Made by a program: the position numbers and the translations under genes. A DNA stretch of 64,000 nucleotides from Bacteroidetes bacterium GWF2_35_48 (lineage in GTDB: Bacteria; Bacteroidota; Bacteroidia; Bacteroidales; GWF2-35-48), in contig MEOG01000088.1 in NCBI GenBank assembly GCA_001769125.1, positions 1 to 64,000 of the forward strand, in the 5' to 3' direction. Below are positions 4 through 33,838 of this stretch, in pieces. Each line of letters begins with the position of its first letter. The first letter of the stretch is position 1. The notes under the pieces are model-generated. The model saw nothing but the letters and a program-made list of their open reading frames with translations, had not been told where the DNA came from and did not search any database.

Positions 4-150
4 CGGTGCTCTGCACCTTAGATTTTCTATACTTTTTTAGTTTTACAAATATTATGCGGCTCTGCCGCTGCATTCCAAATATAGCAGCGATAGCTGCGAT
101 AATATTTGTAGCAGCGATAGCTGCGTTGTTTACAAAGGTGCAGAGCACCG
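4..150. repeat. Nested palindromic repeat element
   Basis: A perfect 16-bp inverted repeat (4-19 and 135-150, cggtgctctgcacctt and its complement) encloses a second perfect 12-bp inverted repeat (44-55 and 99-110). Inside are a small gcggc...gccgc hairpin and two direct copies of agcagcgatagctgcg (83-98, 110-125). No credible ORF spans it. The rest of the stretch to 460 shows nothing clear. It looks like a dispersed palindromic (MITE/REP-like) element; function unknown. Confidence 0.7.
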
Positions 151-459
151 GAATATTATCATTTTGATTCCAGCCTTAATTTTTCATAAAAACAGAAAAA
201 GCAAAAAATATTTTATTATTCTCTTGAAAAATGGCTGCTGATATCATTTTTTAGCGAATTAAATTATGCGAAAGCTGAGTTATTAACAATTTATGCTGCA
301 TAATTACATAAATCAGCATAAGGTGTTCCTCTTTTAATTACTGCAAAATCCTTGATAACAATTTATTTCTATAATAATGTAAATTATCTTTCTAATGTAT
401 TACTTGAAGCATAAATAAAAAAAGAAGAAAAAATAATAGGTTACGACTTCTGCGATTTT

Positions 460-21476: not shown

Positions 21477-24119
21477 ATGGAACTGAAAAGCTATCAACAT
21501 AAAGTAATAAAAGACCTCGAACTGTATCTCGAATATATTCAGAGGTTCAAAAAAACCGATACTGCATTTAATAAATTTTGGGAAGACCGCATAGGCCCTT
21601 TCAATCCGATTAGCGGCGATGGTATGCAGCCATATAAAAATACCATTCCGAATGCAGCACATGTTTGCATCAAAGTACCAACAGCCGGAGGAAAAACATT
21701 CATTGCCTGTAATGCTTTGCATACAATTTTTTCTGCTTATTCATCCGATCTGCCACGCCTTGTTATCTGGTTAGTTCCGTGGAGTAATTTGCTTGACCAA
21801 ACAGTAAATAATCTGAGCAATCCCGATCACCCATACAGGCAAAAACTTGATTCTTTATTCAATCACCGTGTAGAAGTCTATCAGAAAAAAGATGTAAATC
21901 AGGCATCAAATTTTAATCCCTCAGTAGTCAAGGAGCAGCTTTCAATCATTGTAATGAGTTTTTCAAGTTTAAGGGCAAGGAACAAAGAAGATCGCAAAGC
22001 ATTTCAGGAAAATGGCTCTTTACAACCCTTTGCTGAACAATACAAAGATAAATCACACCTGTTAGAAGATACAGACGATACAGCTTTAATCAATGTTATT
22101 CGCAGTTTAAATCCGGTGTTAGTTGTTGATGAAAGCCACAATGCCGAAAGCGATTTAAGTGTAGAAATGCTCAATGCTCTCAATCCTTCATTTGTATTAG
22201 ACCTCACGGCAACACCAAAAGACAACAGCAACATTGTAAGCCTTGTTCCTGCAATAGAATTGAAAAAGGAACACATGGTAAAACTTCCGGTCATTGTGTA
22301 CAACCATCACGATAAAACAGAAGTCATAAACAGTGCGCTGCACCTGCAACACAAATTAGAATTACTCTCTGTTGAAGAAGAAAAAAACGGCGGTAAATAC
22401 ATTCGCCCGATTGTTTTGTTTCAGGCACAGCCCCGTATAGGTGAGGATAGCACTACATTTGACAAACTGAAAGAACAATTGTTAAAGGTTGGTATTCCCG
22501 AAGATCAAATAAAAATTAAAACTGCTGAAAAAGACGAATTAAAAGGCATTGATTTAAGTTCAAAAGATTGTCAGGTACGTTACATTATTACTATCAACGC
22601 ATTGAAAGAGGGCTGGGATTGCCCGTTTGCTTATATCCTTGCATCATTGGCCGACAAATCATCTGCCGTTGATGTGGAACAGATTTTAGGCCGTGTACTT
22701 CGTCAGCCCTATGTAATGAAACATTCCGCTTCGCTTCTGAATGTTTCTTATGTACTCACTGCATCCGCAAAATTCAATGATACTTTGCAAAACATTGTAA
22801 GAGGTTTACAGGCTTCCGGTTTCAGCGAAAAAGATTACCGGGAAAAAAATGTGATGCTCGAAGATGAAACGAAAAAAATCATTGCAAAACCGCTTGAAAC
22901 ATTCTTATTTCCCGAACAGGAAGAAGTAAGTACAACAAGTGCCGATGAAATTGTACCGGAAAGAATATCATTCAATCCCAATGCAAAACCATCAGCAGAT
23001 ACAAAGGTTCCGGTAATTGATGAAATTGAAAACATGGCCGAAACCCAGAACAGGGAAATGGAAGCAGTTATAGAAAAACAAAGTCAGCAACCTGTTGACG
23101 AAAATATATTTCAGGAAATGGGCGATAAAGTAAAGCGTTATAAAATTGCAGATGTCAACAAAGAACTGGCATCAGGCATTAAGCTGCCTCAATTCTTTTT
23201 AGAAGTGAAGGAAAGCGATATTTTCGGAACAAATAAAATCTTGCTCAATCAGGAATCTTTATTGAAGAATTTTAAACTGAGTAACAAAGATTCAGAGATT
23301 GATTTCGACCAGATAACATCAGACTTGTATAAGGTAGATATTGAGCAGATAAAGAAAGACGAGTACGCACCACGCTTTACCAAAATTGAGGATATGCAAG
23401 TAAAAGACCCTATTGTTGATTACATACTTGCAAAACCAAAAGAAGGCCAGATAAAAGACATTTCACATCAGTTAGTTCAGTTGGTTGGCGACATGTACCC
23501 TATTCCCGATCAGGAAATACGGGTGTATGTGGAAAGAATTTTAAGTCAGTTGAACGCCGAACAGTTACAAGATATATTGGTGAGAAAATGGAGTTATTCT
23601 GATAAAATCAAAGCAAAAATTCGCCAACATGCAGACAGTTACGCCGAAGGTCAATTCAATGATTTAATAAAAATCCGGAAAGTGGTTGCAGAACCGGCAT
23701 GGAATTTTCCTGAAATGATTGTTCCTGGTCCGTTGGGTGCTTCCATCGGTCATTCTCTTTATGAACGTGAAGGAGCAATGAATAACTTTGAAACAACTGT
23801 AATAACAGACATTGCAAGTCTATCAAACATTTCGTTTTGGCATCGTAATTTAGGCAGGGGAAAAGGCTTTTCAATTAATGGCTTTAAATCCAACCACTAC
23901 CCTGATTTCATTGTGGTTTCAAAAACAGGTAAAATAATAATCGTTGAAACAAAAGGCGACGACCGTGATAATTCCGATAGTGCCGCGAAATGTCGTTTGG
24001 GTAACAAATGGGCAGAATTAGCCGGTAAGGATTTTTCATATTTCATGGTTTTTGATAAAAAGGCTATTGACGGGGCTTATAATGTGGATAAAGCGAAAGA
24101 ATTGATAAAACAGTTATAG
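21477..24119 (+). CDS. res: Type III restriction system helicase-nuclease subunit (Res)
   Basis: 880 aa. An SF2 helicase with motif I VPTAGGKTF (about 67-75), motif II DESHN (near 217), motif III LTATP, and motif VI-like EQILGRVLRQPY. The C-terminal PD-(D/E)XK endonuclease shows D-F-I-V-V...I-I-I-V-E-T-K-G-D-D near 820. This is normal type III Res length and order. Together with Mod it makes a complete, apparently intact restriction system. Confidence 0.92.
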   Translation: MELKSYQHKVIKDLELYLEYIQRFKKTDTAFNKFWEDRIGPFNPISGDGMQPYKNTIPNAAHVCIKVPTAGGKTFIACNALHTIFSAYSSDLPRLVIWLVPWSNLLDQTVNNLSNPDHPYRQKLDSLFNHRVEVYQKKDVNQASNFNPSVVKEQLSIIVMSFSSLRARNKEDRKAFQENGSLQPFAEQYKDKSHLLEDTDDTALINVIRSLNPVLVVDESHNAESDLSVEMLNALNPSFVLDLTATPKDNSNIVSLVPAIELKKEHMVKLPVIVYNHHDKTEVINSALHLQHKLELLSVEEEKNGGKYIRPIVLFQAQPRIGEDSTTFDKLKEQLLKVGIPEDQIKIKTAEKDELKGIDLSSKDCQVRYIITINALKEGWDCPFAYILASLADKSSAVDVEQILGRVLRQPYVMKHSASLLNVSYVLTASAKFNDTLQNIVRGLQASGFSEKDYREKNVMLEDETKKIIAKPLETFLFPEQEEVSTTSADEIVPERISFNPNAKPSADTKVPVIDEIENMAETQNREMEAVIEKQSQQPVDENIFQEMGDKVKRYKIADVNKELASGIKLPQFFLEVKESDIFGTNKILLNQESLLKNFKLSNKDSEIDFDQITSDLYKVDIEQIKKDEYAPRFTKIEDMQVKDPIVDYILAKPKEGQIKDISHQLVQLVGDMYPIPDQEIRVYVERILSQLNAEQLQDILVRKWSYSDKIKAKIRQHADSYAEGQFNDLIKIRKVVAEPAWNFPEMIVPGPLGASIGHSLYEREGAMNNFETTVITDIASLSNISFWHRNLGRGKGFSINGFKSNHYPDFIVVSKTGKIIIVETKGDDRDNSDSAAKCRLGNKWAELAGKDFSYFMVFDKKAIDGAYNVDKAKELIKQL

Positions 24120-24168
24120 TGAATGAATGCATCTAAAATTTGAAATATATTGTTAATAATGTAAACGT

Positions 24169-25377
24169 ATGGAACAAACTCACGATCCAATTCGCCATTT
24201 AAAATTCTTCCGGCAGGCGTTATCACAAGATAAAAAGATAGGTTTCTTAATCTCCGCAGGTTGTCCTTTAGGTGTTGATATGCCAGCCGGTAAATGGCCT
24301 CTAATTCCTGACATTGAAAACCTCACAAAACTTACAAGTGAAACAATTATTAAGAGTGCCAATAAAGTTAAATATGAAAAACTATTAGAGGAGCTTACTA
24401 AAACTGGAAAGAGTAAGGATAACATCGAAGATATTTTAAGTTTCTTACGTGGGTTAAAACAAGTTGCTAAAGGTGGTACTGTTCGTGGTTTCTCCTTTGA
24501 TGATTTAGAATTATTAGAAAAGGAAGTATGTAAAGTTGTTGTTACTTCAATGGATGTGGTACTTCCCGATTCTGAAACCTCATATCATAAACTTGCAAAC
24601 TGGATTAACTCAATAGAACGGGAATATCCGATTGAAATTTTTACCACGAATTATGATTTATTGATGGAGCAAGCCTTTGAAGAAATAAATGTTCCTTACT
24701 TTGATGGCTTTGTTGGTTCAAAAAATACTTTTCTTGATCTAAGAATATTAGAAGACGATTCTCAAATTTTACCAAAGCATTGGACTTGTCTATGGAAAAT
24801 TCATGGCTCTATAAATTGGTATCACGAAAAGGGTAATGTCACACGACTTTCTTTAGTTAATAAAGATGGAAATAATCTTATTTATCCCTCTCATTTAAAA
24901 TACGAAGAAAGCCGGAAAATGCCGTATCTGGTATTTATGGACAGGTTAAGCAAATTCATAAGAAGACCTTCTTCATTGTTAATTGCATCAGGCTATTCAT
25001 TTCGTGATGAACACATAAACAATACAATTTTTAACGCTCTTAAAAGTCAACCAAATTCAATGGTTATAGGTTTATTTCATGGCTCCTTGGATAAGTACCC
25101 GGAAGCAATAAAAGCGGCTTCAAGAACTTCAAATCTTAGTCTTTTATCAAAAGACGAAGCAATAGTAGGTACAATAAGAGGGAAATGGAAATTATCAAAG
25201 ACGTTAGAGCCTGATGAAAACATTGCAGATTGTATAAAAATTGAGAAAACGACTGTTGGTACACCGCCAGTGGATGTTGAAAATATTTATTGCAAATTAG
25301 GTGATTTCAAAATGTTAGGTGATTTCCTGCAATTCATTATTGGCAGTAATAAAATTCTTGATACAGATGCAAAATAA
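24169..25377 (+). CDS. SIR2-domain protein of a SIR2-HerA defence pair
   Basis: 402 aa. A SIR2-like NAD-binding fold: GFLISAGCPLG (about 24-34), FTTNYDLL (near 157) and KIHGSINW (near 210) correspond to the nucleotide loop, the TTNYD motif and the catalytic HG. The C-terminus is unassigned. SIR2 domains paired with HerA ATPases form an anti-phage complex that degrades NAD+. The gene follows res by 49 bp and overlaps the herA-like gene by 11 bp, so the two are translationally coupled. NADase activity is inferred. Confidence 0.85.
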   Translation: MEQTHDPIRHLKFFRQALSQDKKIGFLISAGCPLGVDMPAGKWPLIPDIENLTKLTSETIIKSANKVKYEKLLEELTKTGKSKDNIEDILSFLRGLKQVAKGGTVRGFSFDDLELLEKEVCKVVVTSMDVVLPDSETSYHKLANWINSIEREYPIEIFTTNYDLLMEQAFEEINVPYFDGFVGSKNTFLDLRILEDDSQILPKHWTCLWKIHGSINWYHEKGNVTRLSLVNKDGNNLIYPSHLKYEESRKMPYLVFMDRLSKFIRRPSSLLIASGYSFRDEHINNTIFNALKSQPNSMVIGLFHGSLDKYPEAIKAASRTSNLSLLSKDEAIVGTIRGKWKLSKTLEPDENIADCIKIEKTTVGTPPVDVENIYCKLGDFKMLGDFLQFIIGSNKILDTDAK

Positions 25378-27157
25378 ATCTACATATATTGGTTCAGTTC
25401 AGGATGTAAATGGTTCGTGCATTAAAATTATAATGTCAAACGAATCTCTTTTTGGGCTTTCTTATATTGACGGACAAGGTTATAAAATTGGTCAGATAGG
25501 TAGTTTTATTAAAATCCCTATTGGTTATATTGATTTATATGGTGTTATTTCTCAAGTTGGCGCAAGTGCAGTACCAGAGAGAATGCTTCAAATTCAACCT
25601 AATGGAAATAGATGGATTACCGTTCAATTAATTGGAGAAGCAACAAGAACAGGTAATTTTCAAAGAGGCGTTTCACAATATCCAATTATCGGGGATGAGG
25701 CTCATGTAGTAACCGAGAAAGACCTTCATGTTCTATATGGTTTACCTGATGAACCGCAATACGTCCAAATTGGGAACATTGCAAGTGCTGAGGCAATTCC
25801 AGCATTGTTGGATATTGATAAATTTATTACACGTCATAGTGCAATAGTAGGGAGTACAGGTTCAGGCAAATCAAATACCGTTACATCTATTCTTAAATCT
25901 ATTACATGCGGCAAATTTCCAAAAGCGAAAATCATTTTAATTGATCCACATAGCGAGTATAAAAATGCACTTTCTTCCGTTGCAAAAATTTTCTCACTTG
26001 ACAGCACTGAAAATCCATTATCAATTCCATTCTGGGGCCTTTCATATAATGAGCTTGCATTAATTCTATTTGATAAGAAACAAGCGGCAGATACTCAGCA
26101 AGACCTTGCAATTCAAGATAAAATCTTAAATGATAAATTAGAAATATCCTCAAAACTAAAATTAGGTGCACTTACAAAAGAAGATATTACAATTAATTCT
26201 CCTATCCCTTTTAATTTAAAAAAAATATGGTACGACTTATTTGTTGAAGAATATGCAACTGTAAATACAAAGGCCGATTTAAAAACAATTGCATACAAAA
26301 AAGATGCTGCTGGCAATGAAATAAAAGGGAATTATAAAAATTTAATTCCGCCTGAATTTTTACCTCCAGGCGCTGGTAGTAGTGTACCTTTTAAATATAA
26401 AGAAAATCGAATTTTATCTTCACCGCTTAATAAACTTCATGGAAAACTTAAAGATACAAGATTAAAATTCCTTTTTGATACTGACGAATTTGACGGTATT
26501 ACAAAAGACTTGAACGATTTATTAGACACATGGATAAATCACGACAAGCCTATAACTGTGCTTGATTTAGGAGGTGTGCCATTTGAAATAATGGATTTAG
26601 TAGTCGGCTTGATTTGCCGTATTACTTTTGAAAGTATGTTTTGGGGTAGGTATATAGATGGTTTTGGCAGGAAACGACCTATTCTTATGGTGTTTGAAGA
26701 AGCTCATTCTTATTTGCCTCGTGGTGGCAGCAATCAATTTGTTGTTGGATATGCGTGTAATGCTGTAAGACGAATTTGTAAAGAAGGTAGGAAGTATGGT
26801 ATTGGTGCTTCAATTATCAGCCAACGGCCATCCGAGTTAGATGAGTCTATTCTTTCTCAGTGTGGTACTTTTATTTCGTTGCGTTTATCAAATTCAAACG
26901 ATCAGGGAATAATAAAATCTTCCATTCCTGATTCTTCATTTAGTTTGTCTGAATTATTACCTTCACTCAGAACTGGAGAGGCAATTATCGTTGGCGAAGC
27001 TGTGAAAATTCCTTCACGTGTAATGATTCCTTTAATGCATCCAAGACCTGACAGTTCTGATCCTATTCCCTCAAAAGAATGGAATGATACTTCAATTGAA
27101 AACCCGGATTTTCCTAAAGCAATAAATAGTTGGCGTAAACAAATAACTTTAAAATAA
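25367..27157 (+). CDS. HerA-like ATPase of the SIR2-HerA pair
   Basis: About 596 aa from the ATG at 25367. An N-terminal HAS-barrel (about 1-120) is followed by a HerA/FtsK-type ATPase with Walker A GSTGSGKSNT (near 161), a PHSEYKNAL segment, Walker B PILMVFEEAHSYLPRGG (near 440) and IISQRPSELDESILSQCGTFISLRLSN. HerA proteins form hexamers on DNA. Its start lies inside the SIR2 gene. Confidence 0.88.
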   Translation: MQNKSTYIGSVQDVNGSCIKIIMSNESLFGLSYIDGQGYKIGQIGSFIKIPIGYIDLYGVISQVGASAVPERMLQIQPNGNRWITVQLIGEATRTGNFQRGVSQYPIIGDEAHVVTEKDLHVLYGLPDEPQYVQIGNIASAEAIPALLDIDKFITRHSAIVGSTGSGKSNTVTSILKSITCGKFPKAKIILIDPHSEYKNALSSVAKIFSLDSTENPLSIPFWGLSYNELALILFDKKQAADTQQDLAIQDKILNDKLEISSKLKLGALTKEDITINSPIPFNLKKIWYDLFVEEYATVNTKADLKTIAYKKDAAGNEIKGNYKNLIPPEFLPPGAGSSVPFKYKENRILSSPLNKLHGKLKDTRLKFLFDTDEFDGITKDLNDLLDTWINHDKPITVLDLGGVPFEIMDLVVGLICRITFESMFWGRYIDGFGRKRPILMVFEEAHSYLPRGGSNQFVVGYACNAVRRICKEGRKYGIGASIISQRPSELDESILSQCGTFISLRLSNSNDQGIIKSSIPDSSFSLSELLPSLRTGEAIIVGEAVKIPSRVMIPLMHPRPDSSDPIPSKEWNDTSIENPDFPKAINSWRKQITLK

Positions 27158-27163
27158 ATCATT

Positions 27164-27376
27164 ATGGAAATGCAACCAGTATCATCATCAAATCTTGCAG
27201 CTGTTGGTTATGAAGAATCATCATCAACATTGCGTGTTGATTTTTTAAATGGCACATCATACGAATACTATAATGTACCAAAAGAAGTTTTTGACGACCT
27301 AATAAATGCAGGCTCTAAAGGTCAGTACTTTAATGCAAATATTAAAAAAGGTGGTTACCCATATTCAAAATTATGA
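27164..27376 (+). CDS. KTSC-domain protein
   Basis: 70 aa: VSSSNLAAVGYEESSSTLRVDFLNGTSYEYYNVPKEVFDDLINAGSKGQYFNANIKKGGYPYSKL is a full KTSC domain (with K replaced at one position). KTSC domains occur alone or fused to nucleases and phage proteins and may bind nucleic acid or protein. It is 6 bp after the HerA-like gene and overlaps the next gene by 4 bp (ATGA), so it belongs to the same defence operon. Confidence 0.8.
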   Translation: MEMQPVSSSNLAAVGYEESSSTLRVDFLNGTSYEYYNVPKEVFDDLINAGSKGQYFNANIKKGGYPYSKL

Positions 27377-28407
27377 AAGAAATACTAAAAATAAATCAGC
27401 AGTTAAAAAGGTTGGAGATAACGGATTTTGAAATTTCCAATGAGATTGTTTTTACATATTTCAGGGGTTTGCCAACTTCTGTAAGAGAAGAAAAATTTCT
27501 GAAAGCTATTTACATTGGTGTACTTGCTCTAATGGAGGATCGCATTTCTGCTTTTCTTTCCAAAACACAGAACGAGTTAGGCACAGAACTCGAAAGTCTG
27601 AAAATGATTTTTGAAATGAAAAAAGAACTGTTTTATAAAACCACAGTTAAAGGAATATTGGCAGAAGATGAAATCGCCGAATTTCTTAATGATTATTTTT
27701 CTGAAAAACGATTAAATGACAAGGCTCTTCTTACTGGAAATACTGCTGGCGAAATCAAAAAAAATAAAACTGGTGATATTGTTTGCGAGGTTAATGGTAC
27801 ATCGGAATTAAAAATTGTTATTGAGTGCAAATTTGATAAAAGCATAAAACTTGGCGACATTTCTTCTAAAGATGTTTTTACTAAGAAATTTGATACTGCA
27901 TGGAGTCAACTAATAGAGGCACAAGCAAACCGAAATGCTAAAGTCGGAATTATAGTTTTTGACCGCTCACTTGTGGACGGAAGCATTATAAAGGCGTTTG
28001 ATAATGTTGGGTTCATCCCTGACATTGGTTTTATTGTAATCATTGATTCACAAAAAGGTGATTATTCAAACCTTGCTATAGCATACATGCTGGCTCGTGA
28101 CATTGCTGTTAATGCAAAAGTTCCTGATGTAGATTTTGATTTTCTTTCAATCCTTTTAAACAGGATTATAAAAGACATAAATGAAATTCTTTCAATAAAA
28201 ACACTTGTAGTATCTAATATTGAAACCAACAAGCAAATACTTAAACAGCTTGATAAATCTATGCTTTTGATGGAGTTTAATCAGGAATATTTGAAGAAAT
28301 ATTTAAACGAAGGCAAAATATCAAAAAATGATTTGTTGAGTTTTTATTCTGCGGAAGAAGTCAAAGAAAAATTTAAACCATTGGAGAAAGATATTTCCAA
28401 TTTATAG
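27373..28407 (+). CDS. PD-(D/E)XK nuclease-like protein, unknown family
   Basis: 344 aa. An N-terminal helical region (about 1-90), then a region resembling a PD-(D/E)XK core: GDIVCEVNGTSELKIVIECKFDKS (about 134-157, D-x(n)-E-C-K) followed by a strand-helix pattern KVGIIVFDRSLVDG and IGFIVIIDS. A helical, coiled-coil-like C-terminus (about 250-344) follows. I do not recognise a named family. The 4-bp overlap with the KTSC gene and proximity to SIR2-HerA suggest an additional defence effector. The nuclease call is a motif reading only. Confidence 0.5.
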   Translation: MKEILKINQQLKRLEITDFEISNEIVFTYFRGLPTSVREEKFLKAIYIGVLALMEDRISAFLSKTQNELGTELESLKMIFEMKKELFYKTTVKGILAEDEIAEFLNDYFSEKRLNDKALLTGNTAGEIKKNKTGDIVCEVNGTSELKIVIECKFDKSIKLGDISSKDVFTKKFDTAWSQLIEAQANRNAKVGIIVFDRSLVDGSIIKAFDNVGFIPDIGFIVIIDSQKGDYSNLAIAYMLARDIAVNAKVPDVDFDFLSILLNRIIKDINEILSIKTLVVSNIETNKQILKQLDKSMLLMEFNQEYLKKYLNEGKISKNDLLSFYSAEEVKEKFKPLEKDISNL

Positions 28408-28423
28408 TAATAGTTGAATAGAT

Positions 28424-29743
28424 ATGTTTACATGCAAGGACATATATAAAATTATTAATTCACCTGAAAAGGAGAATCTTACTATCGAACTCAAATCCTT
28501 TAGGAAATTATTTGATGATGACCATAAGGATGGTAGTGTGAAACGTAAAGAAATTGCATACACAATTGTTGCATTAGCAAATCGCTTCGGAGGTAAATTA
28601 ATTTTTGGCATAAATGATGACGGTTCTTTTGATGGGAAAAATAAGATTGATATTGATAAAGCAAAGGAATCAATTAATCAAATCTGTACTGGAAATATTA
28701 GTCCGATAGTTGAATACCAATCGCAGTTTTTAGAATGCCCAGAGGGAGACCTATTAATTATTCATATCCCAAAAAGGAAAGGAATTCCATTTGCATATAT
28801 CAATTCAAAAAACAGCATAGGTGAAATCACGAACAGAGTTTATTACATAAAAACTTATCATGGCAAACAATTGGTTAGTGACTCTCAATTAGCTTGGCTG
28901 TTTAATAATACTGATGATCCAAAATTTGATTATAAATTCCGGATTGCTATTGAATTTAATAAAAATTTAGAGTTACTTAATTTTATTTCTGATCAGTGTT
29001 CAAGGGAAGTTTGCTGGTTTATGCCATATATTTTGAAAAGGGATAATACTCGTTTAAAAACAGATTCTACATACTTTTCCGTATTTTTCATACAGCTTTT
29101 TCCGTATTTTGTTTTAAAATCATTTTCCGTCTTTTTTTCTCATTCATGGTATATACACATTTCTAAAGGCTTTGACCGAATGTCTTCGGGTCCGATTATT
29201 TCAAATTTTATCTCAAACCCTTGCCCTGTTAGAATTGAAAACATTCCTGTTACTGGGGTTAGTGTTTTAAATGATTATTTTGGAGATTTCAAACAAATAT
29301 TAACTGAACAATTTCAAAATGATTTTCATCTACCACCCGAATCATCAATAAATATTTTTTACGAGGAAGAAAATAAAATATCGGGATTATTAATAAAAAA
29401 TCCTAAGTTTTCAATTAAGATACGATTTGCGTTACAATCTGCTGGTTCTGGTATGCATCAAAGTAATCCGTATTTTAAACTTCTTGTATCTCGCGATGCT
29501 TTTAAAGGTCATGAAATATCTATGCACAATTATTATCACCTTGATGCAGTTGGATTTTTAGAGGCATCCTTTGATTATCCTGAATATGACATGGATGAAT
29601 TTGATAAGTATTATCATTATTATCAAACTATAAAAGTATTACTGGATGACAATTGGAATTATGAGTTATCATTAAATAATTTTCCGTCAAAAGACACCCT
29701 GATTATTAATGATAAACTGGATCAGCTTTTAAATCGCACTTAA
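28424..29743 (+). CDS. AlbA_2 / Schlafen-type protein with unknown C-terminus
   Basis: 439 aa. Residues about 18-150 form an AlbA_2 (Schlafen AlbA) domain: ENLTIELKSFRKLFDDDHKD...KEIAYTIVALANRFGGKLIFGINDDGSFDGK and LLIIHIPKRKGIPFAYI. This domain binds nucleic acid or nucleotides. The remainder (about 160-439) is beta-rich and not recognised; it contains no HATPase_c_4 domain, the usual partner. The gene starts 16 bp after the nuclease-like gene. A role in defence is inferred from position. Confidence 0.65.
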   Translation: MFTCKDIYKIINSPEKENLTIELKSFRKLFDDDHKDGSVKRKEIAYTIVALANRFGGKLIFGINDDGSFDGKNKIDIDKAKESINQICTGNISPIVEYQSQFLECPEGDLLIIHIPKRKGIPFAYINSKNSIGEITNRVYYIKTYHGKQLVSDSQLAWLFNNTDDPKFDYKFRIAIEFNKNLELLNFISDQCSREVCWFMPYILKRDNTRLKTDSTYFSVFFIQLFPYFVLKSFSVFFSHSWYIHISKGFDRMSSGPIISNFISNPCPVRIENIPVTGVSVLNDYFGDFKQILTEQFQNDFHLPPESSINIFYEEENKISGLLIKNPKFSIKIRFALQSAGSGMHQSNPYFKLLVSRDAFKGHEISMHNYYHLDAVGFLEASFDYPEYDMDEFDKYYHYYQTIKVLLDDNWNYELSLNNFPSKDTLIINDKLDQLLNRT

Positions 29744-29793: not shown

Positions 29794-31290
29794 ATGGCAC
29801 AAGGAAAACGAAAATTACCACGGGATTACATGAAATTGGCTATTGAAGTCATGCAAAAATCCAAGATGGAAAAAAGAGTAGATAAATCCAGTCCCTATGT
29901 CGGGGCTGTTCTTGTTTTTCCTGATGGTACAACCGATACAGCCTGCCGTGGCGAATTTCGTGATGGCGATCATGCTGAATATACGCTATTGGATAAAAAG
30001 AACCGTGCAAAGGATTTATCAGGCTGCTGGCTCTTCGCTACACTTGAGCCTTGCGCCCCCGGTTCCCGGAATGCCCCTAAAATTCCCTGTTCAGAACGTA
30101 TTGTCAATGCCCGTATTTCAGAGGTATGGTTCGGCATCGAAGATCCCGACCCCAAAGTAGATCACGGTGGTATTAATCATTTAATTGAAAAAGGTATAAA
30201 GGTGCATCAGTTCGACGGCGATTTGCACAAAATCATTGAAGATGTAAACAAGGAATTTCTGAAAGGTGCATACAAACGAAAAAAGGAAGCGATAGAAACC
30301 AAACTTAAACCAACGGATAAACTAAATGAACAGGCTGCTAATACTGATTTTTCAGACCTTTCAAAAACCGCCTTACAGAAATTTCTTGACGAATCAGGCA
30401 GTAAACTAAAGGTTGGCTCTGAGGCTCTGACCAAAGAACTCCTGCAAATGGAATTGGTGGAGAAAGATAAAAAATCCGGTACTATTATTCCTACAGGTAA
30501 TGCCATTCTGCTATTTGGAGAAAAGCCCCGCCTTAAATTTCCTCAGTCTTCAGTAAAAGCAAAAGTTGCCTATGGCGATGGAAAAACTGATGTTCAGAGT
30601 TTCGATGATGCCCTGGTATTAATCCCCGATTTGGTAGAAGCATGGGTAAAAAAGGTCATTCCCGAAAGTTTCGACCGTTCCAAATTTCAACGTAACAAAG
30701 TACCCGCTTTCCCCACAGAAGTAATTGACGAGGCCATTATAAACGCCATTATTCACAGGGATTACAGCATTGATGGTGCAAAAGTTCAATTGGAAATAAC
30801 ACCTGATAAAATTGTGGTAAAAAGTCCCGGCAAGCCGGTTCCCCCGATCAAACTTGAAGATTTGCAGGGTTTCACAGCAACATCTATCAGCCGGAACAAA
30901 TCGCTGGCATTGGTATTTAATCTTATGCGATACATGGAAGAAACAGAGGTAGGGATGGAAACATACAGGGAAATGAGAGATAAATACAAGCTGCCATTGC
31001 CTGTTATTACGTATGTAGAACCTAATCTTATTGTTACTTTTCCTCGTACTCCTGATGCAGTTCGTAGTTTAGATGATACTGATGTTCTTTCACAGCTTAA
31101 TGATGAAGAACTGGCAGGATATGATTTTGTAAAGACTCGTAAAGCAGTTACTAAAAGGGAATATGCTGAACATTTTAATTATCCTGAAAAGAAAGCTCAA
31201 AGACATTTAAGTGAATTAAAAAAGCATGGCCTTATAACAACAGAAGGTAAAGGACCTTCTACAACATATATTTATAATCCTAATGTATAG
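29794..31290 (+). CDS. Deaminase - GHKL ATPase - winged helix fusion
   Basis: 498 aa. Residues 1-150 are a cytidine/RibD-type deaminase domain with H60-A-E62 and the zinc ligands P86-C87...C99 (PCAPGSRNAPKIPC, a longer spacing than the usual PCxxC). Residues about 185-430 resemble the RecG-like ATP-binding (HATPase_c_4) module: PTEVIDEAIINAIIHRDYSIDGAKVQLEITPDKIVVKSPGKPVPP. A winged helix ends the protein (KREYAEHFNYPEKKAQRHLSELKKHGLI). In ordinary relatives an AlbA_2 domain occupies the first position; here a deaminase replaces it. Possible roles are nucleotide or nucleic-acid deamination in phage defence. Confidence 0.7.
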   Translation: MAQGKRKLPRDYMKLAIEVMQKSKMEKRVDKSSPYVGAVLVFPDGTTDTACRGEFRDGDHAEYTLLDKKNRAKDLSGCWLFATLEPCAPGSRNAPKIPCSERIVNARISEVWFGIEDPDPKVDHGGINHLIEKGIKVHQFDGDLHKIIEDVNKEFLKGAYKRKKEAIETKLKPTDKLNEQAANTDFSDLSKTALQKFLDESGSKLKVGSEALTKELLQMELVEKDKKSGTIIPTGNAILLFGEKPRLKFPQSSVKAKVAYGDGKTDVQSFDDALVLIPDLVEAWVKKVIPESFDRSKFQRNKVPAFPTEVIDEAIINAIIHRDYSIDGAKVQLEITPDKIVVKSPGKPVPPIKLEDLQGFTATSISRNKSLALVFNLMRYMEETEVGMETYREMRDKYKLPLPVITYVEPNLIVTFPRTPDAVRSLDDTDVLSQLNDEELAGYDFVKTRKAVTKREYAEHFNYPEKKAQRHLSELKKHGLITTEGKGPSTTYIYNPNV

Positions 31291-31292
31291 CA

Positions 31293-31693
31293 ATCTGGAC
31301 ATAAATCTGGACATGATGTCCAAATTATTCATAATACTACTAATTGTGGTACTGAATCTGGACATTAATCTGTACATAGTGTCCAGATTATTGAATAGAA
31401 TGAAGATGATACCAAAAAACATGATGCTTCGCGTGGTCAATCACTTATCCATAGTGTCAAAGCTAAAGATGAAAAAAGGGGTCTTTAAGCATTACTTTGA
31501 CACAAACATTGACATAGTGTCAAAGCTCATGCTAATGAATAAAATCATGGTAAAACTGTCAATGCAATTGATGTTATTACTATACAAGATGCTCCGCATG
31601 GTCAAACGCATGGTCATAGTGTCTATGCAGGAGGTAATAAACAAGGTTCTAAAGGCGAACCTCGACATAAACCTCGACATAGTGTCGAAGTTG
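31293..31693. repeat. Degenerate hairpin repeats with covarying stems
   Basis: Five or six copies of a 30-40-bp unit, 60-90 bp apart (about 31293, 31354, 31438, 31497, 31590, 31657). Each carries an arm, a short loop catag/catga and the complementary arm: tggacat..atgtcca, ctggaca..tgtccag, ttgaca..tgtcaa and tcgaca..tgtcga. The stem bases change together between copies. Frames on both strands stay partly open but look like translations of the repeat. The third frame (SGHKSGHDVQ...) could be the decayed repeat tail of the upstream protein. No gene is called up to 31795. Confidence 0.65.
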
Positions 31694-31795
31694 AAGAAAG
31701 AATATCTGTTGATACCCATAAAGGTATTAAAACAGAATATAGTACAAACCAATACCAGAAAGGCTCTTATTGTAAATCTTTAGAATCCTATAACA

Positions 31796-33838
31796 ATGGC
31801 AACACCCAATCTTGTTTTAAACATCCTCACTTTTGATCACCCTTTTGAGAAAAAGTGTTTTGCAGTTTACGATACTGATGCCCCCGGCCTTTGCCGCTTC
31901 CACAGGAAGAAACTCCCGGAATCAGTAAACAATTTATTTCCCCTGAATGAAAGCGAGGACAACATTTTTCTGTATCTCGATCTGAATAAAGAAACTACTT
32001 CAGGGAGCTTTGTTACAGTTAATTTTAAAGAGTACCCTTCTTTTGCCAAGCACTACTATTCATGGCTCATTCAGAAACATTTTAAAGGCATTGCAACCGT
32101 AACGCACTCCAACTTTGTTAAGGATATTGACCTTTGGTTCTCCGAAAAGTCGCTTTCAAATAACTTCATTTCAGCTTACAAGGTATTTTCTGTCCGTGTA
32201 CAGATAGCCCGAAGTTCAGAAAACCCCGAACTGGTAATTTCTTACGCCGGTATTAAGGTTGCCCATAAAAAAAGTGTCATGGCTCTCGATGTGGATACAA
32301 AAAAATATTCATGGGTTATTTACAAAAATGAACTTTATCGTCACAAATACCTGCCCGAAACGGCAAAGTCCGACTGGGGTAATGTTTTTCCGGTATTGAG
32401 CAACGAACTGAAAACCGAACTTGATGTAGTTATTAAACGTCCACGCACGGCAAATAAATACAAACCTTACTATGAACAGTTAAAATCGTTTGTAACAAAC
32501 TACCTCAATGTTCCCGAGTTTAAAAAAATCATCCCTGTAACGAACCCCGATTTTCTGAAAGTTGAAGAAAACGAAATAAACAATACTTCGCCGGGCAGTA
32601 ACCTTCTGCAGTTTGGAAAAAACCAAACAAGCAGAGTTCCCTTCGATGGCCTTGTAACAAATGGCCCCTTTGGTCATTGTCCGCACGAGCATATTAACAT
32701 TTTCTTCATCAGCCATCCCAAATTCAAAGAAGAAGCAAACGCACTTTATACGCACCTTTCAAAAGGCATGGGAAAAGTTCCTTCTTTAAGAAATCTTGTG
32801 AACCGGCCTTTAAATATAAGTAAGGACACTTCGATTTCTTTCAATAATCTCCTGAACCCGGTTCCTGAAATAATGCAGGTTATTGAATCACGTACATACG
32901 ACAAAAACACGCACTACCTTGCAATCTACGTCAGCCCTTATGATAAAGACGAGAAAGACCCGGCATTGCGTCAGATTTATTATAAACTCAAACAGAATCT
33001 CCTTAAATACCGCATTTCCTCACAGGTAATCAATGCAAAGAAAATTACCGACCAGTACTTTAACCTTTATTATGTAAACATTTGTATTGCCATCCTCGCA
33101 AAGCTCGGTGGCGTTCCCTGGCGTTTGGATAGGGAAGATCACAACGAACTGGTTATTGGAGTAGGTGCTTTTAAATCTAAAATATCAGGAGTACGTTACA
33201 TTGGCGGTGCTTTCTGCTTCTCAAACGATGGCCGTTTTCATAATTTCGAGTGCTTTTCAGAAGCTGCATCCCACATGCTGGTGGGGCCAATCTCAAAAGC
33301 AATAAACAGTTTCAGGGCTCAATTCAAAGATGTAAAACGCTTGGTGATTCATTATTACAAACGCATGAGTGAAGAAGACCTGAAACCAATTACAAAACTT
33401 TTATACAATCTTGGTCTTGATATTACTGTAATTGTAATATCCATCAACAAAACAGAAAGCAGCGACTATGTTATTTTCGACACCAATTGTCCGGCTATCA
33501 TACCCATCAGCGGAACCTTCATTGGTATTGGAAACGATCAATACCTGTTATGCAATAATACAAGGTATTCCGATACGCTGCCAAAAGACAGCGACGGTTT
33601 CCCGTTCCCGATAAAACTTACAATCAAATCAGCTCAGAAGGATGAAACTGTAACCGAAGCCGACAAAAAAGAACTCATTGATCAGGTATACCAGTTCAGC
33701 CGTATGTATTGGAAATCCGTCCGTCAGCAAAACCTTCCGGTAACCATCAAATACCCCGAAATGGTCGCTGCCTTTGTTCCATTCTTCCCCAATCAAACAA
33801 TACCGGATTACGGAAAAGATAATTTATGGTTTTTGTAA
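31796..33838 (+). CDS. Long prokaryotic Argonaute, catalytically dead
   Basis: 680 aa. N-terminal half (about 1-360) is unassigned N/PAZ-like. MID domain at about 370-445 has the 5'-guide pocket pattern YYKLKQNLLKYRISSQVI then NICIAILAKLGGVPWRL. PIWI domain at about 450-680. The first catalytic Asp (VIGxDV in active proteins) reads VIGVGAF near 455, and the RDG-type Asp reads LVIHYYKRM near 515, so the DEDX tetrad is lost. Guide binding should persist, cleavage should not. Inactive long Argonautes act by recruiting effectors. The nearest upstream gene is the deaminase-GHKL fusion, across the hairpin repeats; no effector is directly fused. Confidence 0.8.
   Translation: MATPNLVLNILTFDHPFEKKCFAVYDTDAPGLCRFHRKKLPESVNNLFPLNESEDNIFLYLDLNKETTSGSFVTVNFKEYPSFAKHYYSWLIQKHFKGIATVTHSNFVKDIDLWFSEKSLSNNFISAYKVFSVRVQIARSSENPELVISYAGIKVAHKKSVMALDVDTKKYSWVIYKNELYRHKYLPETAKSDWGNVFPVLSNELKTELDVVIKRPRTANKYKPYYEQLKSFVTNYLNVPEFKKIIPVTNPDFLKVEENEINNTSPGSNLLQFGKNQTSRVPFDGLVTNGPFGHCPHEHINIFFISHPKFKEEANALYTHLSKGMGKVPSLRNLVNRPLNISKDTSISFNNLLNPVPEIMQVIESRTYDKNTHYLAIYVSPYDKDEKDPALRQIYYKLKQNLLKYRISSQVINAKKITDQYFNLYYVNICIAILAKLGGVPWRLDREDHNELVIGVGAFKSKISGVRYIGGAFCFSNDGRFHNFECFSEAASHMLVGPISKAINSFRAQFKDVKRLVIHYYKRMSEEDLKPITKLLYNLGLDITVIVISINKTESSDYVIFDTNCPAIIPISGTFIGIGNDQYLLCNNTRYSDTLPKDSDGFPFPIKLTIKSAQKDETVTEADKKELIDQVYQFSRMYWKSVRQQNLPVTIKYPEMVAAFVPFFPNQTIPDYGKDNLWFL

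Follow-up and report, generated by a model that had tools for sequence, protein, structure and literature searches.

The repeats that lie between a deaminase gene and an Argonaute (pAgo) gene in the 64,000-nt stretch of Bacteroidetes bacterium GWF2_35_48 DNA analysed here (the window) are most probably double-stranded DNA sites for the protein encoded immediately upstream, which would read them with its own winged helix (wHTH). Comparison of homologous loci at the sequence level reveals that the array goes with this gene, has a defined architecture, bears half-sites that co-vary with the wHTH, is swapped together with it and leaves older units behind; we infer that the protein binds the array physically, and what purpose this binding serves. 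The best explanation, which we hold to be fairly probable as a whole, combines doublet sites read by the wHTH, exchange of cassettes and docking of the protein at its own 3' array.

Six 33-nt units, forming three doublets, follow the deaminase gene at start-to-start distances of 63, 75, 63, 102 and 63 nt, the 63-nt step being that within each doublet (Table 1). A unit is laid out as A–N3–A–N3–A′, a half-site of ~9 nt in direct repeat followed by its reverse complement, with the 5' arm present twice, 12 nt apart. The initial annotation had counted at least five degenerate units whose paired arms change; these five were found as reported, the arm changes tgga/tcca, ttga/tcaa and tcga/tcga included, together with a decayed sixth. 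Unit 3 keeps the exact register, 63 nt before unit 4, and its arms match the reverse complement of the 3' arm at 6/9 and 5/9 positions. A strict unit scorer recovered 4 units in the 460-nt region, whereas 1000 dinucleotide shuffles gave 0.002 units on average and never more than 1; elsewhere in the 64 kb, both strands included, it recovered only 2. Further copies of the array DNA were not found in its own genome, and the palindrome adjacent to the gene was found only here and in one likely chance match.

Table 1 Features in and around the repeat array of the window. Domain limits are residues of the encoded protein; all other positions are nucleotides of the window.
Feature	Position	Strand	Description
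Gene of the cognate protein	29794..31290	+	Predicted RibD-like zinc deaminase + HATPase_c_4 + C-terminal winged helix (Pfam/NCBIfam, PDB sequence/fold matches, AlphaFold2)
Deaminase domain	about 10-158		Product of 29794..31290
HATPase_c_4 domain	328-415		Product of 29794..31290
Winged helix	437-494		Product of 29794..31290
Recognition helix	465-477		Product of 29794..31290
166-aa ORF overlapping the array	31283..31783	+	Judged not a gene
Unit 1, doublet 1	31293..31325	+	ATCTGGACA taa ATCTGGACA tga TGTCCAAAT; type matches the wHTH of the adjacent gene
Unit 2, doublet 1	31356..31388	+	ATCTGGACA tta ATCTGTACA tag TGTCCAGAT
Unit 3, doublet 2	31431..31463	+	Decayed copy: GCGTGGTCA atc ACTTATCCA tag TGTCAAAGC
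Unit 4, doublet 2	31494..31526	+	ACTTTGACA caa ACATTGACA tag TGTCAAAGC; other half-site type
Unit 5, doublet 3	31596..31628	+	GCATGGTCA aac GCATGGTCA tag TGTCTATGC; other half-site type
Unit 6, doublet 3	31659..31691	+	ACCTCGACA taa ACCTCGACA tag TGTCGAAGT
pAgo gene	31796..33838	+	PADLOC PDLC02385 E=7e-241; adjoins the array but does not regularly belong to the module

That the region is selected for structure and not for coding, as had been proposed from the window, is borne out by compensatory changes at 7/10 pairs, by doublet spacings (61, 62 and 63 nt) without regard to the reading frame and by the lack of homologues, outside the repeats, of the overlapping ORF. A repeat-encoded protein tail, suggested at the same time, was rejected: the spacings, like the arm periods of 11 and 12 nt, break the frame, and the 166-aa ORF has no Pfam match and matches elsewhere only via the repeats. 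Partial coding overlap does occur, the first unit of L034 overlapping the last codons of the gene.

By its zinc motif (H60-x-E62, P86-C87 and C99, invariant in 40 homologues) and its modelled RibD-like fold (AlphaFold2, pLDDT 86; fold match to RibG/RibD), the upstream protein is predicted to be a zinc-dependent deaminase of the RibD/dCMP class. Identity with the riboflavin enzyme RibD itself was rejected, the match to NCBIfam TIGR00326 being partial (46.8 bits vs a cutoff of 156, residues 14-158 only). The COG2865-type AlbA_2-HATPase_c_4-wHTH proteins (PDB 3lmm) have the same arrangement of HATPase_c_4 and C-terminal winged helix; there, however, AlbA_2 takes the place of the deaminase, and the deaminase-less HATPase relatives that were checked showed no downstream array of this kind. 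Just upstream of the gene (21477-29743) lies a defence island with a type III-like restriction subunit, a SIR2 + HerA pair, an unknown protein of 344 aa and a Schlafen AlbA_2 protein. The same genome encodes a second deaminase-fused protein (G000:C56, L180:2843-4321) with a P-loop kinase-like start (assigned by eye) and a deaminase-like end, an architecture that resembles the AvcD type.

Homologues were gathered mostly via protein similarity alone, four being added from model hits. A canonical unit lies 3' of the deaminase-HATPase-wHTH gene in 55 of 69 homologous loci, and the array was present in 7/7 loci added later by protein alone; some homologues have atypical units, or none that was detected. 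The array-bearing genomes, many of them metagenome bins with approximate taxon labels, are labelled Bacteroidota, Planctomycetota, Verrucomicrobiota, Proteobacteria, Cyanobacteria, Armatimonadetes and others. Within 600 nt of the stop, the gene strand carries 59 exact A-A-A′ triplets, against 8 expected in whole-sequence shuffles of the loci (about 1.08 Mb), and a covariance model of the unit, run against 149 and 395 whole genomes, matched mainly at deaminase-gene loci. The consensus of the unit is ATCNNG[AC]CA–N3–(A)TCNNG[AC]CA–N3–TG[GT]CNNGAT. Its direct arms have a period of 12 nt in 80 units and of 11 nt in 15, the latter mostly of one type; neighbouring units are spaced by 61, 62 or 63 nt in 34 of 47 pairs, with free linkers of 28-31 nt. 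Within the first doublet one half-site is shared exactly in 25/32 cases, whereas different loci show 2.8 differences on average. Of 53 loci, 34 have their first detected unit beginning -12 to +27 nt from the stop codon. The matching half-site occurs 179 times in exact form in the arrays but not once in the 600 nt preceding each gene (28 kb in total), hence the array does not represent ordinary promoter autoregulation, and a classical autorepressor operator at the gene's own promoter was rejected. From these comparisons the conserved array element can be assigned to the upstream deaminase-HATPase-wHTH gene and not to the Argonaute.

The pAgo gene adjoins the array in two loci only, the window and L033 (L033:5001-8731), where the same order of deaminase gene, array and pAgo is found, the Ago being 46% and the deaminase protein 61% identical to those of the window. 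This adjacency is what speaks for a guide source for the neighbouring Argonaute, one of the suggestions of the initial annotation; nearly all loci have the array without an Ago, the arrays following the deaminase gene whatever gene comes next, and such a function can hardly be credited. The genes after the arrays vary (hsdR, DUF1156/methylase, dndC, DprA-like, an antisense gene, pAgo), and the neighbours are defence genes, with HsdM/HsdS upstream, HsdR downstream and DUF1156 anti-phage proteins; in L003:2980-4432 the deaminase gene and its array stand directly before dndC (phosphorothioation). A close rival of our reading, though an unlikely one, is that the array serves chiefly as the operator of the gene that follows (hsdR, methylase, pAgo), which the protein, as a controller, would delay or repress in the manner of C proteins or BrxR. 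Arrays are often found directly before HsdR (7 of 36 directly downstream genes), DUF1156/methylase or pAgo genes, and the next gene is codirectional in 42/56 cases. On the other hand, the position of the array is tied to the stop codon of its own gene, the downstream genes are diverse, and about a quarter of the next genes (14/56) are antisense, which weakens the case for pure control of a downstream gene. A short gene for a DprA-like Rossmann protein of about 155 aa directly follows the arrays at L004:702-1163, L163:1011-1478 and L179:4684-5148, and once such a gene occurs with an array in a locus lacking the deaminase gene.

The covariation test on homologous loci that had been proposed with the first description of the repeats gave overwhelming covariation, which is not RNA-like. 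Units were picked solely by the inner G.CA-N3-TG.C and the outer arms were then scored, the same set serving as the covariation alignment. The outer positions match in 82-96% (first arm) and 76-89% (second arm), compared to 40-60% with shuffled partners; 90% of the cells of the first-arm pairing are paired, with a covariation score of 0.59 (0.15 when shuffled, at most 0.12 when slid), and 86% of those of the second-arm pairing, with a score of 0.52. Mismatches are symmetric (57 G·T vs 69 A·C, p=0.33), also with regard to the strands; in an RNA helix G·U would be expected to be tolerated, and what is seen is the pattern that DNA half-sites leave on either strand. Of the selected RNA or DNA structure put forward by the initial annotation the DNA part stands, while the RNA part is not supported, G·U being no better tolerated than A·C and the array type co-varying with the DNA-binding wHTH domain.

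The same observations bear on an RNA antitoxin or structured 3' UTR, whose transcribed hairpins would inhibit the deaminase as AvcI RNA inhibits AvcD in the deaminase/RNA-antitoxin system AvcID (PMC10511110). This precedent, a nucleotide-type deaminase adjoining a non-coding element, resembles the present case in that the deaminase gene adjoins repeats which are able to fold and show strong compensatory changes. In contrast to AvcID, the element is DNA-like in its substitution pattern and lies downstream, and a RibD-like deaminase is joined to HATPase and wHTH domains in one protein. Moreover, G·U is no commoner than A·C on either strand, Rfam gave no match above threshold (best 18.6 bits vs a gathering score of 101), and the wHTH, not the deaminase domain, is what the half-site follows. 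Conservation extends to the second copy of the 5' arm, which a hairpin would leave in its loop; a single protein reading three half-sites would explain this. We thus regard an RNA antitoxin as quite improbable.

A CRISPR array was also rejected, since the units differ within one array and come as two-unit doublets; Cas proteins are absent from the Pfam families listed for the downstream genes. A single-stranded DNA hairpin or attC-like recombination site that moves the cassette would agree with the DNA-type covariation, the arrays of mixed type, the swapping of cassettes and the existence of orphan arrays. Nevertheless, no recombinase is constantly near, and the co-variation of the half-site with the recognition helix would be unneeded if structure alone were recognized, which makes this alternative very unlikely. 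Compared to integron attC sites, no cassettes lie between the units of a doublet, and one phage-integrase gene was found among 36 downstream genes.

What connects the sites with the upstream protein is the wHTH. Over 53 loci the half-site type correlates with the similarity of the wHTH (Mantel rho 0.55) better than with that of the deaminase (0.27) or HATPase (0.32) domain, and the partial correlation is 0.51 for the wHTH given the deaminase versus 0.10 for the deaminase given the wHTH. Coupling between residues and half-sites peaks in the recognition helix, with a mean best z of 6.0 (461-478) against about 3 in most other regions, although shared ancestry also gives high scores to some individual residues that are not in the wHTH. 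Half-site position 6 (A or C) is coupled to residues 466, 467 and 470, the start of the recognition helix in the AlphaFold2 model, and N470 occurs with C in 8/8 cases. The pairings are consistent among loci: KKAQRHL wHTHs go with TCTGGACA, the type of unit 1 (the window, L041, L043 and L160), KKAYRHL with CATGGACA (L040 and L164), RTAER(L/Y)L with TCTCGCCA at an 11-nt period, RTA(L/M)NHL with GCCA types and ARRHL with TCCGGACA. Since the half-sites change in step with the recognition helix of the wHTH protein encoded next to them, the array can be classed as a putative operator of that protein.

Closely related genes provide natural swaps. The proteins of L056 and L058 share 89% identity up to the HATPase domain and 38% in the wHTH, and their half-sites are TCGCGACA and TCCTGCCA, respectively; the N-terminal part and the wHTH are 80% and 38% identical in L039/L040, and 73% and 25% in L035/L036. 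Conversely, L040 and L164 (N-terminal part 42%, wHTH 65%) both have CATGGACA, and array types are common to the pairs L036/L008 and L039/L007. Two loci were out of sample: L188 is like L044 and L007 in its N-terminal part and like L004/L163 in its wHTH and array, and L190, with an NRTALNHL wHTH, has TCCCGCAA, which differs by one letter from the type found with its wHTH neighbours and does not follow its N-terminal neighbour. The best reading is that the coding end of the wHTH and the doublet constitute one polymorphic specificity cassette, which would be exchanged between otherwise similar genes in many phyla; exchange of specificity in one piece would favour the tight linkage of the array to the stop codon.

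Older doublets appear to remain downstream after such an exchange. The types of later doublets are first-unit types elsewhere (10 of 16 exactly, the remainder one letter off). In the window unit 6 and the bases preceding it match the L033 array before pAgo, the unit being nearly identical, and it is this type that directly adjoins the deaminase gene in L033; an older cassette was thus apparently left behind when a newer one arrived upstream. One suggestive remnant of an old gene before a later doublet, 'KYSAT*' in L004, like 'LRYSAT*' of L006, is not relied on. Across loci, decay is not clearly stronger in the later, non-matching units than in first units, so that the later units may have a role of their own; the window itself does show decay.

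We propose that the winged helix of the deaminase-HATPase-wHTH protein would read three half-sites per unit, two direct and one inverted, and that two units about 62 bp apart would make up the working doublet. The protein would dock on its own 3' array, keeping the deaminase/ATPase local and restrained, and when docked it might block or tune read-through into the next defence gene; if docking is lost (phage takeover, DNA damage, ligand or ATP state) the protein would be released. Restraint or a roadblock as the purpose of the array is put forward tentatively, at somewhat less than even chances, and the orphan arrays behind other genes count against the proposal as a whole. According to another, rather unlikely possibility, the array would act as a self-tag or DNA antitoxin: docking on its own chromosomal array would silence a deaminase-ATPase that may be toxic, loss or occupation of the array would activate it, the wHTH-plus-array cassettes would diversify like polymorphic toxin-immunity pairs, and orphan arrays would confer immunity to foreign modules.

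A protein with its own operators is of a known kind. The immunity regions of lambdoid phages comprise a repressor and clustered operators, and there too the specificity of a DNA-binding domain changes in step with that of its own sites, which are clustered and partly palindromic, the two being exchanged en bloc; in our case, however, the sites lie at the stop codon of the gene, with none in the 600 nt upstream, and the protein has deaminase and HATPase domains. Plasmid iterons are bound by winged-helix Rep proteins, and direct and inverted half-sites are likewise read by a winged-helix protein, but the arrays described here are found in chromosomal defence loci and no replication function or origin was seen. 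The WYL proteins BrxR/CapW are regulators of defence islands (PMC9122601, PMC9122588); similarly to the controller (C) proteins of restriction-modification (RM) systems, they are winged-helix/HTH proteins in defence loci with palindromic sites. They differ from the present protein in their domains, and here the sites are 3' of the gene, with three half-sites per unit and fixed doublets of ~62 bp. No description of the fused protein or of the array was found in the literature searched, which leaves out most subscription journals; within it, polymorphic doublets of three half-sites that are exclusively 3' and are swapped with the winged helix of a deaminase are an undescribed variant. A conserved DNA element thus travels, in many phyla, with an uncharacterised deaminase gene in defence operons (type I RM, DUF1156 loci, Dnd, pAgo). 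It offers a simple, testable recognition code between winged helix and sites, with natural swap pairs at hand, and suggests that some defence effectors may be under the control of DNA sites placed where their own gene ends.

Arrays also occur as orphans, away from any deaminase gene, in several contexts, some of the gene names being given by eye. Six units of mixed type (L177:5944-6410) precede a GIY-YIG/ATPase-like gene, four units (L178:3451-3694) follow an AbiEii-like gene, and single units (L181:4030-4060 and L182:4175-4205) follow DUF2130-like and SoFic-like genes, respectively.
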